From positions 1 to 44,760 of IMG/VR virus record IMGVR_UViG_3300031227_000101: 44,760 nucleotides of DNA, one strand, 5' to 3'. Of the stretch, positions 2,328 to 44,760 are shown piece by piece (the first letter of the stretch is position 1; each line of letters begins with the position of its first letter). Source of the stretch: a virus. The translations under genes were made by a program, and so were the position numbers. Below the pieces are notes generated by a model. It did no database searches, was not told the DNA's origin, and saw only the letters and a list, made by a program, of their open reading frames with translations.

Positions 2328-2727
2328 AATTCAACATCTCACAGAGAGCATCAAATACAGCTACCCCAGGGTCTTCGGATGAACCGTGTGCGTCTTCGAG
2401 GTCTACAAATCCATCCTCATCCATTGAGCTGTATTGTAGGTGGCAGTTATATATTTCTTCATCGCATGGCTCTAACGCTATCCACATTATATAGGGGTAT
2501 TTCCCTCGTACTCGGAACGCAGGCACAGCATACTTGCATATAAGGTTGTTGAGGTCTACTTGGGGAAGGGTTTTTCTATGCCTACCGTTTGGATATTCCC
2601 ATCCAGCATATATTTTAACTTCACCATTCCTAAGTTCGTTTATAAATCTACCTCGAAACCCCAACTGTTCCCAAAGCCATTTAATCTTTTCTTCGGTTAT
2701 CTTTTGTACGTGTTCATCCCGTTCCAT
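2320..2727 (-). CDS. Hypothetical protein (135 aa)
   Basis: This is an unrecognised protein. The sequence contains a DLNNLICKYAVPAF stretch and a C-terminal acidic part ending VFDALCEMLNYE, a style I associate with small phage accessory proteins of unknown role. Its ATG at 2727 lies inside the end of an overlapping 51-aa gene and is preceded by GGAGGTAAAGAA. There are no membrane segments. Confidence 0.6.
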   Translation of the reverse strand: MERDEHVQKITEEKIKWLWEQLGFRGRFINELRNGEVKIYAGWEYPNGRHRKTLPQVDLNNLICKYAVPAFRVRGKYPYIMWIALEPCDEEIYNCHLQYSSMDEDGFVDLEDAHGSSEDPGVAVFDALCEMLNYE

Positions 2728-2852
2728 TTCTTTACCTCCATTCTTTCTTTTTTCTTTTTCCTTGGAATTCTTTTATATTTAGGGCAGGACACGACTTCAA
2801 ACCATTGCTTACAATCGTGAATACAAGTTTTACACAATTTGTCTATTTTCAT
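2697..2852 (-). CDS. Small Cys-rich basic protein (51 aa)
   Basis: This short ORF begins MKIDKLCKTCIHDCKQW after an excellent AGGAGGTTAGTA site. It has four cysteines in the first 25 residues (CKTCIHDC and a later SCPK), suggesting a small zinc-binding knuckle. A lysine-rich tail (RIPRKKKKERM) follows, which could bind nucleic acid. The last ten codons overlap the next gene in another frame, and the stop is at 2697-2699. It lies directly after the amidotransferase gene. The function is unknown. Confidence 0.6.
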   Translation of the reverse strand: MKIDKLCKTCIHDCKQWFEVVSCPKYKRIPRKKKKERMEVKKWNGMNTYKR

Positions 2853-2862
2853 TACTAACCTC

Positions 2863-3735
2863 CTACAACTGACAAGCTACCTCTATTCCAAGGGGAGAAC
2901 GACCAGTGAAGTATTCAAAACAAGAATGACAGACACAGCTAGCCTCTTTACTAGGAAGAACATACAAAATAGGACTCGGTAGTAGGCAATAGTCACATTC
3001 TTCTTCGGTATATTTAGGATTACCTGCCCTGTTTTTGTGCTGGCTGTACCTCCTGTACGCAACAACCTCTGCATCGTAGTCCCCTCCATAGTCACCGCCA
3101 TAGGCTCTAAACCCCTTGTATCCCTCGTTGCTAAACCATAGCCCTTTATCGGATATAAAATCACCAATAAACTCTATACCTTCATTAGATAGTAAAGCAA
3201 ACTTGCTTATAGTATATTCTTCTATTAGTTTTTTGACTGGTGGGCAGTGGACAGCAGCACCCATATCAACAAGGTAGTCTTTGATAAACTCTTGGGCATC
3301 ATTTATATCTTTTTGGATGGGGACTTTTTGGTTAGTACCTTGTTGGTTGGGGGCACGAAGTTTAGTAGCATATTCGTAGATAACCCCATTGTGTGCTAAG
3401 GCACAATCAGTTACTACATCCAGACTATCTAATTCTCCTTGGTCTTTTGTAATCGGGAACGGATGGCAAAAACGGGGCACAACTCCTCCTGTGACCGCTG
3501 CCCGAAACTGAATAATCATCTCAGTCTCTTTAACTAGTACATTACCCAGCAAGTGTCTCATATTGTCTAGCACAGAAAACATATCTTTGTGGTTCATTGC
3601 CCCCTTGAGTATTCTAACCTTGCCTTCATACTGAAAGGCTATACCGAATCCATCTGGATAATCATTGAACCACTGCTTTAGTTTTTTGTTCTTGGGCAAT
3701 CTAATTCCTTTTGGTTTAGCTATTATCAGACACAT
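2863..3735 (-). CDS. Class II (Ntn-type) glutamine amidotransferase
   Basis: This 290-aa protein begins MC, so Cys2 becomes the N-terminal nucleophile after Met removal, as in GATase-II enzymes. Supporting motifs are DGFGIAF (about 28-34), QFRAAVTGG (76-84), CHPFPI (90-95) and ALAHNGVI (112-119). The enzyme would release ammonia from glutamine. The C-terminus adds cysteine pairs (near 247/250 and 267-272) that probably bind zinc. The gene starts inside the end of the amidoligase gene with a GGGAGGT site, so the two are translated as a pair and the ammonia is probably used by that ligase. Confidence 0.85.
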   Translation of the reverse strand: MCLIIAKPKGIRLPKNKKLKQWFNDYPDGFGIAFQYEGKVRILKGAMNHKDMFSVLDNMRHLLGNVLVKETEMIIQFRAAVTGGVVPRFCHPFPITKDQGELDSLDVVTDCALAHNGVIYEYATKLRAPNQQGTNQKVPIQKDINDAQEFIKDYLVDMGAAVHCPPVKKLIEEYTISKFALLSNEGIEFIGDFISDKGLWFSNEGYKGFRAYGGDYGGDYDAEVVAYRRYSQHKNRAGNPKYTEEECDYCLLPSPILYVLPSKEASCVCHSCFEYFTGRSPLGIEVACQL

Positions 3736-4933
3736 GGGCAGACCTCCCTATAGACTCTGAAAATAACATTACTGGTGACTCATCATCAATAGCTTCTTTT
3801 ATTTCTGTTCTAGGATGGGCTTGGCAATACGTAACGTAACGGGGCAGGTAACGGTAACGTTTCTTGCTAACTAATTTTAATAATTCTTCCCAGGTAGTTT
3901 TTTGTAATTGCTTAGTGCTGCAATTTTTGGCTGTTCTAATTAAGAAGTTTACAAGCTCCAAGCTAGCTATAAGAGTGCTATATTTTAGTGTGCTTCTAAA
4001 GATACGAATCTCGATTGTGTCTCTGTTTGTGAGGTTCACAGCGTAAAGCCTATCATAGTTCTCCTCTAGTTCTTTTATTTTGTTTTTAGCGGGCATATTG
4101 TAAAGCGTGCGATTATATTTTTTTGCACTGCGTCTGAGTAAATACTCAGAGGTTCTACCGAGTCTAGCTAACTCATCTCTAAACTTCTCAAACAAATAGA
4201 TAAGACGTAATTGATACAGTTCAGAGTGCTTTCCACTAAAGAATCTACGGTTAAAATGTACGTGTAGGGCAGCTGTCTTTGTTTTTGCTCCATGCCCGTT
4301 GTTATCAAGCACAATTTGTAACATCTTGCCCCAAGGAAACTTATCTTTGTGGTAGGCTAATGTGCAGGGGTGGCTGACAATCTCAAATCCATTATTAAGA
4401 CTACCATCTTCCTCTAGCCAAAACAAGCTCTCCTCATCAGAAATATCCACTAAGGCTTTAGCAGCCTTTGCAGTCCACATAGTAGAAGGATAATTGTCGG
4501 TTTCTAGCTCGACTCCTAAATATAGTCTTTTCCTATTAGTCCCCTCTGGATGGAAGTACAAAGTGTCTCTTGGTGAACCTTCATGGTAAGGATGTATAAT
4601 GCTATCTTCTTCTTCTCCGTTTTCTTCCTGGCAATCTCGGCAGCAACCGCTGCCGTCTAGGTCACCTTCGTGAGTGTTTATTCCACAAAGGCGACAAGCA
4701 TGATAGTTTTCAGCACAATTATCACACAGGCAGGAACCACAACTATTAACATGGTCAGCATGGTCACTACTATTGACTCTATCAAAACTCTGTCTACAGT
4801 CTTGACACGTTCTAACTCTAGCACGTTGACATTGCAGACACCAATATTCGTCTATACCGTCTACCTTTATTGTCTCTACTCCAAAAAAAAGAACCCTTCC
4901 ACAACATACACATCTTTCTTTTACAACTGGCAT
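3716..4933 (-). CDS. Zinc-ribbon plus glutamine-synthetase-like amidoligase
   Basis: This 405-aa protein has two parts. Residues 1-101 hold about 16 cysteines in CxxC pairs (8-11, 32/35, 43/46, 65-73, 80/83, 97-101), a multi-zinc module. Residues 136-330 match the amidoligase_2 (COOH-NH2 ligase) type: LGVELETD (139-146), EDGS (175-178), EIVSHPCTL (184-192), LHVHFNR (223-229) and NLTNRDTIEIRIFRSTL (300-316). Such ligases are predicted to form amide bonds using ATP, often with a GATase-II partner, which here is the next gene. The substrate is unknown; it could be a host protein, a cell-wall peptide or a small molecule. Confidence 0.8.
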   Translation of the reverse strand: MPVVKERCVCCGRVLFFGVETIKVDGIDEYWCLQCQRARVRTCQDCRQSFDRVNSSDHADHVNSCGSCLCDNCAENYHACRLCGINTHEGDLDGSGCCRDCQEENGEEEDSIIHPYHEGSPRDTLYFHPEGTNRKRLYLGVELETDNYPSTMWTAKAAKALVDISDEESLFWLEEDGSLNNGFEIVSHPCTLAYHKDKFPWGKMLQIVLDNNGHGAKTKTAALHVHFNRRFFSGKHSELYQLRLIYLFEKFRDELARLGRTSEYLLRRSAKKYNRTLYNMPAKNKIKELEENYDRLYAVNLTNRDTIEIRIFRSTLKYSTLIASLELVNFLIRTAKNCSTKQLQKTTWEELLKLVSKKRYRYLPRYVTYCQAHPRTEIKEAIDDESPVMLFSESIGRSAHVSDNS

Positions 4934-4984
4934 TTTTTTACCCTCCTCGTTTATTCAGTCCCAACTGTGGGGTTTCAACCCCCT

Positions 4985-5088
4985 CCTCTGTATCTTAATA
5001 TATACAGAGGGAGAGGTGTAGAAATTCCCACAAAGCTAGTTCGATGATTTTTGAGCCTAGATTAGTTCTACACCCCCCTCCTGCCCAT
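4985..5088 (-). promoter_or_regulatory. Structured leader with mini-ORF upstream of the amidoligase
   Basis: Between the 40-aa gene and the amidoligase there is a perfect AAGGAGGT site followed by a six-codon ORF (MGRRGV, 5088-5068). Its stop overlaps the arm 5066-5074, which pairs with 5015-5023 (nine bp). A second hairpin follows, 4985-4993 with 5002-5010 (nine bp, CCTCTGTAT type). A mini-ORF followed by hairpins resembles an attenuator or translational leader. No T-run typical of an intrinsic terminator follows, so the mechanism is uncertain. Confidence 0.4.
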
Positions 5089-5097
5089 TTTACCTCC

Positions 5098-5220
5098 TTA
5101 ATATCCTTTCAGTACTCGATTACAGTTCGGGCAGCGTATTGGGTAGGCTATCGCAAATCTACCAGGTGATATTTTCCTGAGAGTTACGTGCCCACAGATA
5201 CACATTCGCCAATATAACAT
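5098..5220 (-). CDS. Small zinc-ribbon protein (40 aa)
   Basis: This short ORF (begins MLYWRMCICGHV, ends IRCPNCNRVLKGY) has two cysteine pairs, CxCGH and CPNC, spaced like a minimal zinc ribbon. The ATG shares one base with the TAA of the upstream 82-aa gene (TAATG), and the end of that gene encodes its AGGAGGTAAGTA ribosome-binding site. It is clearly coupled to that gene. The role is unknown; small zinc ribbons in early phage regions often modify host proteins or bind nucleic acid. Confidence 0.7.
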   Translation of the reverse strand: MLYWRMCICGHVTLRKISPGRFAIAYPIRCPNCNRVLKGY

Positions 5221-5468
5221 TACTTACCTCCTTTTGCTTTGGCTAAAGCCTTCTTCATTCTTAGAACATCGGCACTTGAGGGAACCGTTCTTGTTACTAC
5301 TCGCTCACCCTCGACCTCTTGTGCAGCACACACGCCTTTTAGTGCCTCATACATCTCAGGTGCAGCAGTGTGCTTGGGGCAATACGAGATTTCATAAGTG
5401 CCCATATTGTCCGTGAGTATTTCACACCCACAATCATATGCTTTCTCGCTCCAATTCATATAGTTCAT
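5220..5468 (-). CDS. Small Cys-containing hypothetical protein (82 aa)
   Basis: The N-terminus has a CGC...C..H cluster (YDCGCEI then YCPKH) that could bind a metal. It is followed by AAPEMYEALKGV, a pattern I associate with small phage proteins of unknown function. The C-terminus is basic (KALAKAKGGK). The ATG at 5468 has a GGAGATAAGAG site. A probable promoter lies at 5506-5535, so this gene may start a transcript that also carries the 40-aa zinc ribbon and the amidoligase pair. Confidence 0.65.
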   Translation of the reverse strand: MNYMNWSEKAYDCGCEILTDNMGTYEISYCPKHTAAPEMYEALKGVCAAQEVEGERVVTRTVPSSADVLRMKKALAKAKGGK

Positions 5469-6998: not shown

Positions 6999-7337
6999 AT
7001 GGAAGAGCAATCCAAACTCGAAAAGAACGCCACGCCTATCAGAGACAAACATGGTAGATTCTTAAAGGGTACACCACCCAATAACCCACATGGAGGCCGC
7101 CCTCTGGGAAGTGTCAGCCTGGTAACAATGCTTCGAGAACACCTCCAGGCCTGCCCCGAGGATGCAACGGCTATCGTCCAGGCATTGATAAGAATGGGCA
7201 AGGGCAGGGAGCTATACGCAATCAAAGAGATAATGGATAGAGTGGATGGGAAGGTCGCAGATACTCATAAGATAGAGAGTGATGCACCTGTATACCTAGT
7301 GTTTAAGCCTGCTAAAGAGTTGCTTAGTATAGAGTGA
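6999..7337 (+). CDS. Putative small terminase subunit / DUF5681-like
   Basis: This 112-aa protein begins with a basic stretch RDKHGRFLKGTPPNNPHGGRPLGS, typical of the DUF5681-like proteins found next to phage terminases. A helical middle region follows (MLREHLQACPEDATAIVQALIRMGKG). By position, as the first gene of the packaging module, it is the best candidate for the DNA-recognition (small) terminase. AGGAG lies before the ATG. The assignment rests on position and the N-terminal motif. Confidence 0.6.
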   Translation: MEEQSKLEKNATPIRDKHGRFLKGTPPNNPHGGRPLGSVSLVTMLREHLQACPEDATAIVQALIRMGKGRELYAIKEIMDRVDGKVADTHKIESDAPVYLVFKPAKELLSIE

Positions 7338-7340
7338 GGC

Positions 7341-7356
7341 TACACGGTTGCGTGTA
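7341..7356. promoter_or_regulatory. Operator-like palindrome TACACG-N4-CGTGTA
   Basis: This is a perfect 6+6 inverted repeat just after the TerS-like gene. A near copy (ACACG-N4-CGTGT) lies at 6843-6856 in the divergent control region. The two sites flank the first rightward gene and have the same four-base spacer, suggesting binding by one dimeric protein. Confidence 0.45.
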
Positions 7357-7452
7357 AGGAAGTGACACGGCGTTTGGGTTGGTCGAAGGGGAAATCCTTA
7401 GCCTATATAAAATTTTAAGTTTTAATGCTTTTTATGTAAAGTCAGAATTGAA

Positions 7453-7665
7453 ATGAGAAGATTAGTTGGAAATTGTGAATGTTATTCTCCTAGCAAGGTA
7501 GGCACGTTGTGTCCTTGGCGTTCAGATGAGACAAAGATAAATAAGAAATGTGAAAGCTACAGAGAGGATTGTGGGAATTATCAGGGGACACAACACCCAG
7601 GGTACTCCAATACAGGTGGTTGCTACACTCAAGATGAGTGGGAACATAAATGCGGTGGATGCTGA
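7453..7665 (+). CDS. Small Cys-rich protein (70 aa)
   Basis: This ORF has eight cysteines in 70 residues (CECYS near the start, CPW, CESYREDCGNY, GGC and a final CGGC). I see no good ribosome-binding site, so expression is uncertain. Cys-rich content is shared with the next gene at 8080. The residues could form disulfides or bind metal. It lies between the TerS-like gene and the structured RNA region. Confidence 0.45.
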   Translation: MRRLVGNCECYSPSKVGTLCPWRSDETKINKKCESYREDCGNYQGTQHPGYSNTGGCYTQDEWEHKCGGC

Positions 7666-7740
7666 AAGGAAGTATAAGTAGTGTGTTATAACGAAGGAGA
7701 ACAGCTACGAGTTTTTAGAGATAGTTGTGGCTGAATAAGC

Positions 7741-43960: not shown

Positions 43961-44024
43961 CTATGCCTCCACCCCTAAGAGCTTCATAAAACCATTGCTT
44001 CTGTTTTTTCGTGGGTTCGCTCAT
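43953..44024 (-). CDS. Tiny ORF between clpP and the helicase (23 aa)
   Basis: The ATG (44024-44022) overlaps the clpP stop as ATGA, and the ORF (MSEPTKKQKQWFYEALRGGG...) overlaps the helicase start by eight bases. GAAAGGTGGG is upstream. It may be a real micro-protein or a translational coupler between the two larger genes. Confidence 0.35.
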   Translation of the reverse strand: MSEPTKKQKQWFYEALRGGGIDA

Positions 44025-44623
44025 TTTACCCACCTTTCAAAGACATCAGAAGTCATTATCTCATCTGCCAAGCCGTAAGCAATAGCCTCCTCTGGCTCCA
44101 TCCAAAAGTCGTGGTCTATATCTGCCAATATCTCATCGTGGCTCTTGCTTGCCCCGCACTCTATAAGAATGTCTATTGTTTTCTGCTTGTACTTCTGAGC
44201 CTCTCGCTGGCAAATTTCCAAGTCTTTATGCTCTAAAGAAACATCTCTAAAGTAAGTAGAGGGCAAGTGAAGCATAACCTTGGCATGAGGAGACAAATAA
44301 CGTTTAGAGCCAGCAGCCAAGGGTATCACAGCAGCGGAAGCACAATAACGACCATAGGTTTCTATAGGGGATTGGAGTAAACGCATTGTGTCATAAAACA
44401 AAAACGCTGCGTCTAAATCTCCTCCAGGGCTTGTGATAATGAACTTAATAGGCTCATGTGAAATTGAGTCTAAAGCCATCATAAGCATAATAGATTCCAT
44501 CTCGTTTGAGATTGCTCCTGAAAGCGTTAAAATCCGATGGTCTTTTGCTAAATGCTCTCTCGCCCCAACCATTTGGTCTTCAAAGACAAGTTTACCTTTC
44601 TCGTTTACTCTAGGATATAACAT
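44021..44623 (-). CDS. clpP: ClpP-like serine protease
   Basis: This 200-aa protein has the ClpP signature: SPGGD (65-69, oxyanion/strand), CASAAV with Ser96 as nucleophile, MLHLPS with His119, and a late Asp in DHDFWMEPEEAIAYGLAD (about 173). ClpP forms barrel proteases fed by Clp ATPases. Here it is within the leftward replication arm, far from the capsid genes, so a role in controlling host or phage proteins is more likely than prohead maturation. No ATPase partner is seen in the genome. Confidence 0.85.
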   Translation of the reverse strand: MLYPRVNEKGKLVFEDQMVGAREHLAKDHRILTLSGAISNEMESIMLMMALDSISHEPIKFIITSPGGDLDAAFLFYDTMRLLQSPIETYGRYCASAAVIPLAAGSKRYLSPHAKVMLHLPSTYFRDVSLEHKDLEICQREAQKYKQKTIDILIECGASKSHDEILADIDHDFWMEPEEAIAYGLADEIMTSDVFERWVK

Positions 44624-44760
44624 ATTACCTTCCTTTTTGCCCTTTATTTATTATAATATAATTTTATTATTTTCCCATCAGGTTTTTCCCACTCAGAATA
44701 CATCTCCCCAAAACCCCCACCTGCAAAGAACAAGCCTAAGTATCTGTAACCTCTTCGGTT
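44584..44760. repeat. Terminal direct repeat, right copy
   Basis: This is the second copy of the 177-base repeat found at 1-177, with C at 44633 in place of T at 50. It ends inside the reverse-strand 50-aa gene that is complete only in the left copy. The window is therefore one genome length plus 177 bases of redundancy. Confidence 0.9.

Follow-up and report, generated by a model that had tools for sequence, protein, structure and literature searches.

A zinc-ribbon amidoligase paired with a class II glutamine amidotransferase in a phage genome: a candidate glutamine-dependent amide-forming enzyme

Pairs of genes encoding an amidoligase and a glutamine amidotransferase were predicted in 2009 (Iyer et al. 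2009, as cited in PMC10580990 and PMC11318856), and phage genome papers have repeatedly listed them as cell-wall modifiers. They are already known in many phages, such as the LUZ24-like phage UFV-P2 (PMC3890496), RIO1-like podoviruses (PMC5498523) and OM43 phages (PMC10580990), and our literature search found no experiment or biochemical test that shows the acceptor of such a pair. In cells, MurT/GatD is known to amidate peptidoglycan glutamate and to raise lysozyme resistance (PMC3267633). A preliminary description of the DNA analyzed here, made from its letters alone, had invoked a comparative genomic prediction for two overlapping phage genes, and that prediction can be traced to Iyer et al. 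2009 through the two papers that cite it. The pair reported here is genuine and soundly assigned, and it is of an ordinary kind. What is new is the documentation of its zinc-rich architecture as a family trait, the finding that the pairing is both broad and strong, and a link to a glutamate racemase in a related contig, which turns the old prediction into a specific test.

The window is the whole virus record IMGVR_UViG_3300031227_000101, 44,760 bases in length. A 177-bp direct repeat is present at both of its ends (1-177 and 44584-44760, with one mismatch), and therefore the record, which is not flagged as having end repeats, is probably a complete phage genome of about 44.6 kb with circular permutation or terminal redundancy. 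From about 8 kb onward the plus strand is occupied by terminase, portal and structural genes, and DNA-metabolism genes lie on the minus strand at 36-45 kb and 0.2-0.6 kb. The amidoligase/amidotransferase pair, at 2.9-4.9 kb, is also on the minus strand, in the same block as genes for a PolA-type polymerase, an exonuclease, a uracil-DNA-glycosylase-like protein, an AAA ATPase, a ClpP and an RNase H-like protein (all names except AAA and ClpP were assigned from sequence motifs alone), with terminase and portal on the opposite strand, which agrees with the early-type region previously proposed for the pair. In this otherwise small phage, the block includes a ClpP-type protease (44021-44623, minus strand; PF00574, E 7e-31). 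Among named terminases, the best matches to that of the phage are no more than 36% identical. A separate contig (L286) has a terminase 70% identical to that of the window, and roughly 2 kb away from this terminase the contig breaks off within the gene for a divergent zinc-ribbon protein (7198-7736) that matches the N terminus of the ligase family. No match to the PADLOC models of anti-phage defence was obtained.

Both overlapping open reading frames of the preliminary description are present on the minus strand. The first, at 3716-4933, encodes an amidoligase of 405 aa, in which three N-terminal zinc ribbons (residues about 8-101) are followed by a glutamine synthetase (GS)-like Amidoligase_2 domain (about 137-345), and the motifs attributed to it were located at residues 140-144 (GVELE), 175-178 (EDGS), 224-229 (HVHFNR) and 300-310 (NLTNRDTIEIR). 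PF12224 (Amidoligase_2) matches the protein above its curated cut-off (26.2 versus 22 bits, E 9e-6), and the protein belongs to PHROG 16683, an entry with no function (E 1.4e-46). A single-protein search of IMG/VR with this ligase found nothing, the patterns used being too specific. Among eight distant phage homologues, G140, E142, E144, D176, S178, E184, V186, H224, H226, N300, T306, E308, R310 and the start Met are invariant, and an alignment of 46 homologues yields a nearly identical set in which the ATP/metal ligands (ExE, E/D and E eight residues apart, HxH and ExR) are all kept. In the mapping to E. coli GS, E142xE144 corresponds to E129xE131, D176/E184 to E212/E220, H224xH226 to H269xH271, and E308xR310 to E357xR359, and YbdK, a glutamate-cysteine ligase-like carboxylate-amine ligase, has motifs at equivalent places (LGIELE, GQHVHV and TVEVR). 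Since GS and YbdK, each aligned to the family profile by hhalign as a single sequence, gave low probabilities (4.0 and 3.5%, respectively), this mapping is based on motif order, spacing and fold instead. The loss of ATP/metal ligands considered in the preliminary description is thus not seen, every one being retained relative to E. coli GS.

Structure prediction led to the same superfamily. An AlphaFold model of the ligase built with 46 sequences (mean pLDDT 84) was matched by Foldseek to YbdK, GS, Dop and PafA with a probability of 1.00, which confirms the Amidoligase_2/GS superfamily fold; the TM-scores to PDB structures are modest, at 0.3-0.4, partly owing to the additional zinc region. In BFVD, 54 viral models match the ligase at E <= 0.001, many of them named amidoligase. 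PHROGs 16683 and 22302 are GS-fold amidoligases, and a function class is now available for both.

The multi-zinc N-terminus that had been read from the sequence consists of three tandem four-Cys ribbons (C8/C11/C32/C35, C43/C46/C70/C73 and C80/C83/C98/C101), and all twelve cysteines are invariant among the five closest aligned homologues. At least four CxxC pairs precede the core in 77 of 116 non-redundant ligases. The profile of this block scores against eukaryotic LIM domains (E 2.5e-4), a result to be expected of zinc ribbons in tandem. A separate CxxC pair set is present in the C-terminal part of the amidotransferase, a feature not previously mentioned, and at least two such pairs occur in 85 of 193 longer homologues. 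A probable role of the ribbons is to bind either the acceptor or the partner subunit.

The second gene (2863-3735, minus strand) encodes a class II (Ntn-type) glutamine amidotransferase of 290 aa. The catalytic Cys2 noted earlier directly follows the start Met and is invariant in 52 homologues, as are R78, H115-N116-G117 and D146; R78, N116-G117 and D146 align with motifs of GFAT-1. The Pfam GATase_4 model scores below its cut-off (15.5 versus 23 bits, E 0.009) for the window protein, whereas one homologue, in contig L011, exceeds it (25.9); this cut-off is a detection threshold rather than a defining trait, and fold and family-profile searches are decisive. The family profile matches GFAT-1/GlmS chains (E 3e-9) and the predicted structure, with a core pLDDT of about 97, matches the GFAT-1/GlmS fold with a probability of 1.00, so that the class II assignment stands despite the Pfam miss. 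The loop near the glutamine site reads QFRAAVTGG and departs mildly from the HFRxATHG of the family. The two genes overlap by 20 nt (3716-3735), and the GGGAGG ribosome site of the amidotransferase lies inside the end of the amidoligase gene, an arrangement that suggests translational coupling.

Upstream of the amidoligase start codon, a leader with a long imperfect hairpin is predicted at 4934-5097 (minus strand). The fold of 4934-5100 has a z-score of -2.72 and none of 200 shuffled sequences was as stable; no Rfam family matched the leader. The structured leader of the preliminary description therefore exists, but it is preceded by a gene missing from that account, a 40-aa ORF (5098-5220, minus strand) for a small zinc-ribbon protein (CxC...CxxC) that has no Pfam match. 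This ORF has a strong ribosome site, AAAGGAGG before its ATG, and comes directly after an 82-aa ORF (5220-5468, minus strand) with a weak match to PHROG 1273, which is upstream in the same transcription unit as the pair. Sigma-70-like matches in the region occur at chance frequency (18 found versus 16.1 expected).

The association of the two enzymes is both broad and strong. Relatives were taken from two ligase-seeded scans of IMG/VR (best 80 of 402 and best 80 of 365) and from a genome scan (best 80 of 298; Ruminococcus, Oscillospiraceae and other Clostridia). Across phage contigs, Clostridia genomes and phage records, an amidotransferase is adjacent to 228 of 251 amidoligases among the best-ranked relatives of each scan, a total that takes in 31 amidotransferase-seeded loci biased toward pairs by construction (a ligase was in the fetched stretch at all 31 of these viral loci in IMG/VR). 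After redundancy removal at 60% identity, 103 of 116 ligases have an adjacent amidotransferase, with a median gap of 3 nt, and in bacterial genomes the same holds for 78 of the best 80 of 298 loci. The pairing is not due to chance, and the outcome that the preliminary description had named as damaging, homologues never found next to a GATase, is absent. The ligases without an adjacent amidotransferase are concentrated among accessory second copies and in the phages and plasmids of C. difficile, and those of the C. difficile group also lack zinc ribbons; it follows that the partner is dispensable in some cases or that host ammonia suffices. No fused amidoligase-amidotransferase protein was found among the homologues. 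In seven phage contigs the amidoligase is present in two or three copies, which surround one or two amidotransferases. The mirror-tree correlation of the two proteins is 0.49 (best of 1000 shuffles, 0.06); it was rejected as proof of a complex, as any linked co-inherited genes would give the same result.

The pair is not confined to phages. Among the Clostridia loci (best 80 of 298), a small serine resolvase is a neighbour at 47 and a 96-aa protein family at 46, which indicates that the pair also travels as mobile cargo outside phages; it is carried by mycobacterial plasmids too. Phages and Clostridia genomes alike thus commonly hold the paired genes as cargo. Single genomes of Ruminococcus flavefaciens and Butyricicoccus contain several copies of the pair, often with the small serine resolvase and the conserved 96-aa protein next to them, which looks like transposable cargo. 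No third gene encoding an acceptor is general to the family, the next commonest neighbour cluster after the two enzymes being within three genes at 19 of 120 loci.

Considering the fold, the retained ligands and the partner gene, it is very likely that the pair carries out glutamine-dependent amide synthesis. The amidotransferase would hydrolyze glutamine via its N-terminal cysteine to release ammonia, the GS-fold amidoligase would use Mg-ATP to convert the acceptor carboxylate to an acyl phosphate, and attack of the ammonia on this acyl phosphate would give the amide. That the acceptor is a glutamyl carboxylate appears probable, and the best single candidate may be the D-glutamate of the host peptidoglycan precursor, in which case the pair would be a phage analogue of the cellular MurT/GatD and could alter the wall of the infected host, for instance as a protection from lytic enzymes or superinfecting phages. 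Taken as a whole, the reading in which both genes together specify a single amide-forming enzyme that depends on glutamine and acts on a glutamyl carboxylate, with peptidoglycan D-glutamate as the candidate, is one that we favor by a small degree.

The preference for a glutamyl acceptor comes from gene context. The closest homologue found, a 17.7-kb contig (IMGVR_UViG_3300015370_000073, hereafter L010), has enzymes 46% and 49% identical to those of the window and shares two early genes with it, one of them RNase H-like. Its ligase (1450-2625) and amidotransferase (3423-4301) are separated by a third gene (2609-3442). Its overlaps with these two genes are 17 and 20 nt, respectively, and the NCBIfam equivalog model TIGR00067 assigns it as glutamate racemase (181.6 bits versus a cut-off of 146.65). 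At another locus (L092), a Peptidase_C26 gamma-glutamyl hydrolase-like gene, a phiEco32-type COOH-NH2 ligase and a second class II amidotransferase lie beside the pair, and GGACT (gamma-glutamylamine cyclotransferase) is present in 4 of 20 related phage records. These neighbours favor a glutamyl chemistry. The window record itself has neither a racemase nor GGACT, and no racemase was seen at the other pair loci, roughly 240 in number. Racemases in a 'phages' collection were not counted as phage genes; one with annotation adjoins hemH on a bacterial-like contig.

On this basis a larger proposal can be made, namely that the pair and the L010 racemase form a viral D-glutamate amidation module that rewrites host peptidoglycan during infection and is used by phages and other mobile elements independently of MurT/GatD, although we regard it as rather doubtful. 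The racemase could equally be an unrelated insertion, such as a gyrase inhibitor, that is uninformative about the pair, and we give this the same limited credence. MurI proteins of several bacteria inhibit DNA gyrase (PMC10886550), so the L010 gene need not signify a supply of D-Glu, and there is only one such case; however, the gene overlaps both of its neighbours in an operon-like manner, is intact with both catalytic-cysteine motifs retained (ACNT and GCTHY), and is the sole full-length racemase gene in an IMG/VR pattern scan, the other five matches being at contig ends. Because of the single racemase event and the gyrase inhibition by MurI, peptidoglycan as the target is held tentatively, at somewhat less than an even chance.

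The main alternative to a wall precursor is a protein or peptide. The ribbons may serve to dock a protein of the host or of the phage, whose Glu/Asp side chains or C terminus the ligase would amidate or link in a PafA/Dop-like manner. The ligase fold also matches PafA and Dop, LIM domains are protein-binding modules, and most family members carry such a ribbon block, for which binding of a macromolecule is a more natural fit than binding of a small precursor. No small substrate-like gene is conserved across the lineages of the 120 loci, however, and the racemase would have no role, and we consider modification of a protein improbable, though worth keeping in mind. For Phage-ZRK32, it has been proposed that such genes supply the amino-acid metabolism of the host with ammonia or amides as an auxiliary metabolic module, and a growth-promoting phage with amidoligase, amidotransferase, glutathione synthase and GGCT genes was reported together with a role in nitrogen metabolism, but the genes themselves were not tested there (PMC10945688). 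Hosts already own GS and GlmS, the zinc ribbons would be left unexplained, and the pair is also cargo of resolvase-linked Clostridia elements and mycobacterial plasmids, all of which make such a module quite unlikely. Least probable, with very little credence, is amide formation on a modified tRNA or DNA base by way of nucleic acid-binding ribbons, as the zinc ribbons of RNA-binding proteins appear only among weak profile matches (E above 0.7) and genes for base hypermodification or tRNA modification are not consistently linked. A glutamyl acceptor thus remains our preferred reading, and the tight L010 operon with glutamate racemase offers a concrete and cheap hypothesis of a D-glutamyl acceptor as well as a natural three-gene construct.

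Compared with the known phage pairs (phiEco32, LUZ24/tf, RIO-1, Marvin gp105-gp106 and gp05-gp06 of the OM43 phage MEP401), the window encodes the same two families, which are mostly side by side in those phages as well, and the pairs of MEP401, Marvin and ctgrD200 were confirmed by alignment. Mycobacterium phage Marvin gp105 (L002, 5920-7281) is annotated as 'glutamine amidotransferase domain protein' but is the amidoligase, gp106 being the amidotransferase. What sets the window pair apart is the three zinc ribbons on its ligase and the cysteine pairs on its amidotransferase. The LUZ24-type peptidoglycan-modification cassette includes GGCT/GGACT, ATP-grasp and COOH-NH2 ligase genes, whereas the window pair has no such neighbour matches. 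PHROGs 2443 and 7469 are named amidoligase, in contrast to PHROGs 16683 and 22302, which have no assigned function. YbdK, GS and PafA/Dop share the fold and metal ligands of the window ligase and lack its zinc ribbons; in addition, GS uses free ammonia and PafA/Dop act on Pup, unlike the chemistry proposed for the window pair. The glutaminase domain of GlmS/GFAT has the Cys, Arg, Asn-Gly and Asp residues and the fold of the window amidotransferase, which differs in that it stands alone without a sugar isomerase domain and has an altered loop before the Arg motif. The outline of MurT/GatD, which amidates peptidoglycan D-Glu in S. aureus, is similar, with an ATP-dependent ligase and a glutamine amidotransferase encoded together. 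MurT is a Mur-ligase relative and GatD is of the CobB/CobQ type (class I), both with folds different from and unrelated to those of the window proteins. By fold, the phage pair is thus not a member of MurT/GatD, but by analogy it may work alike.
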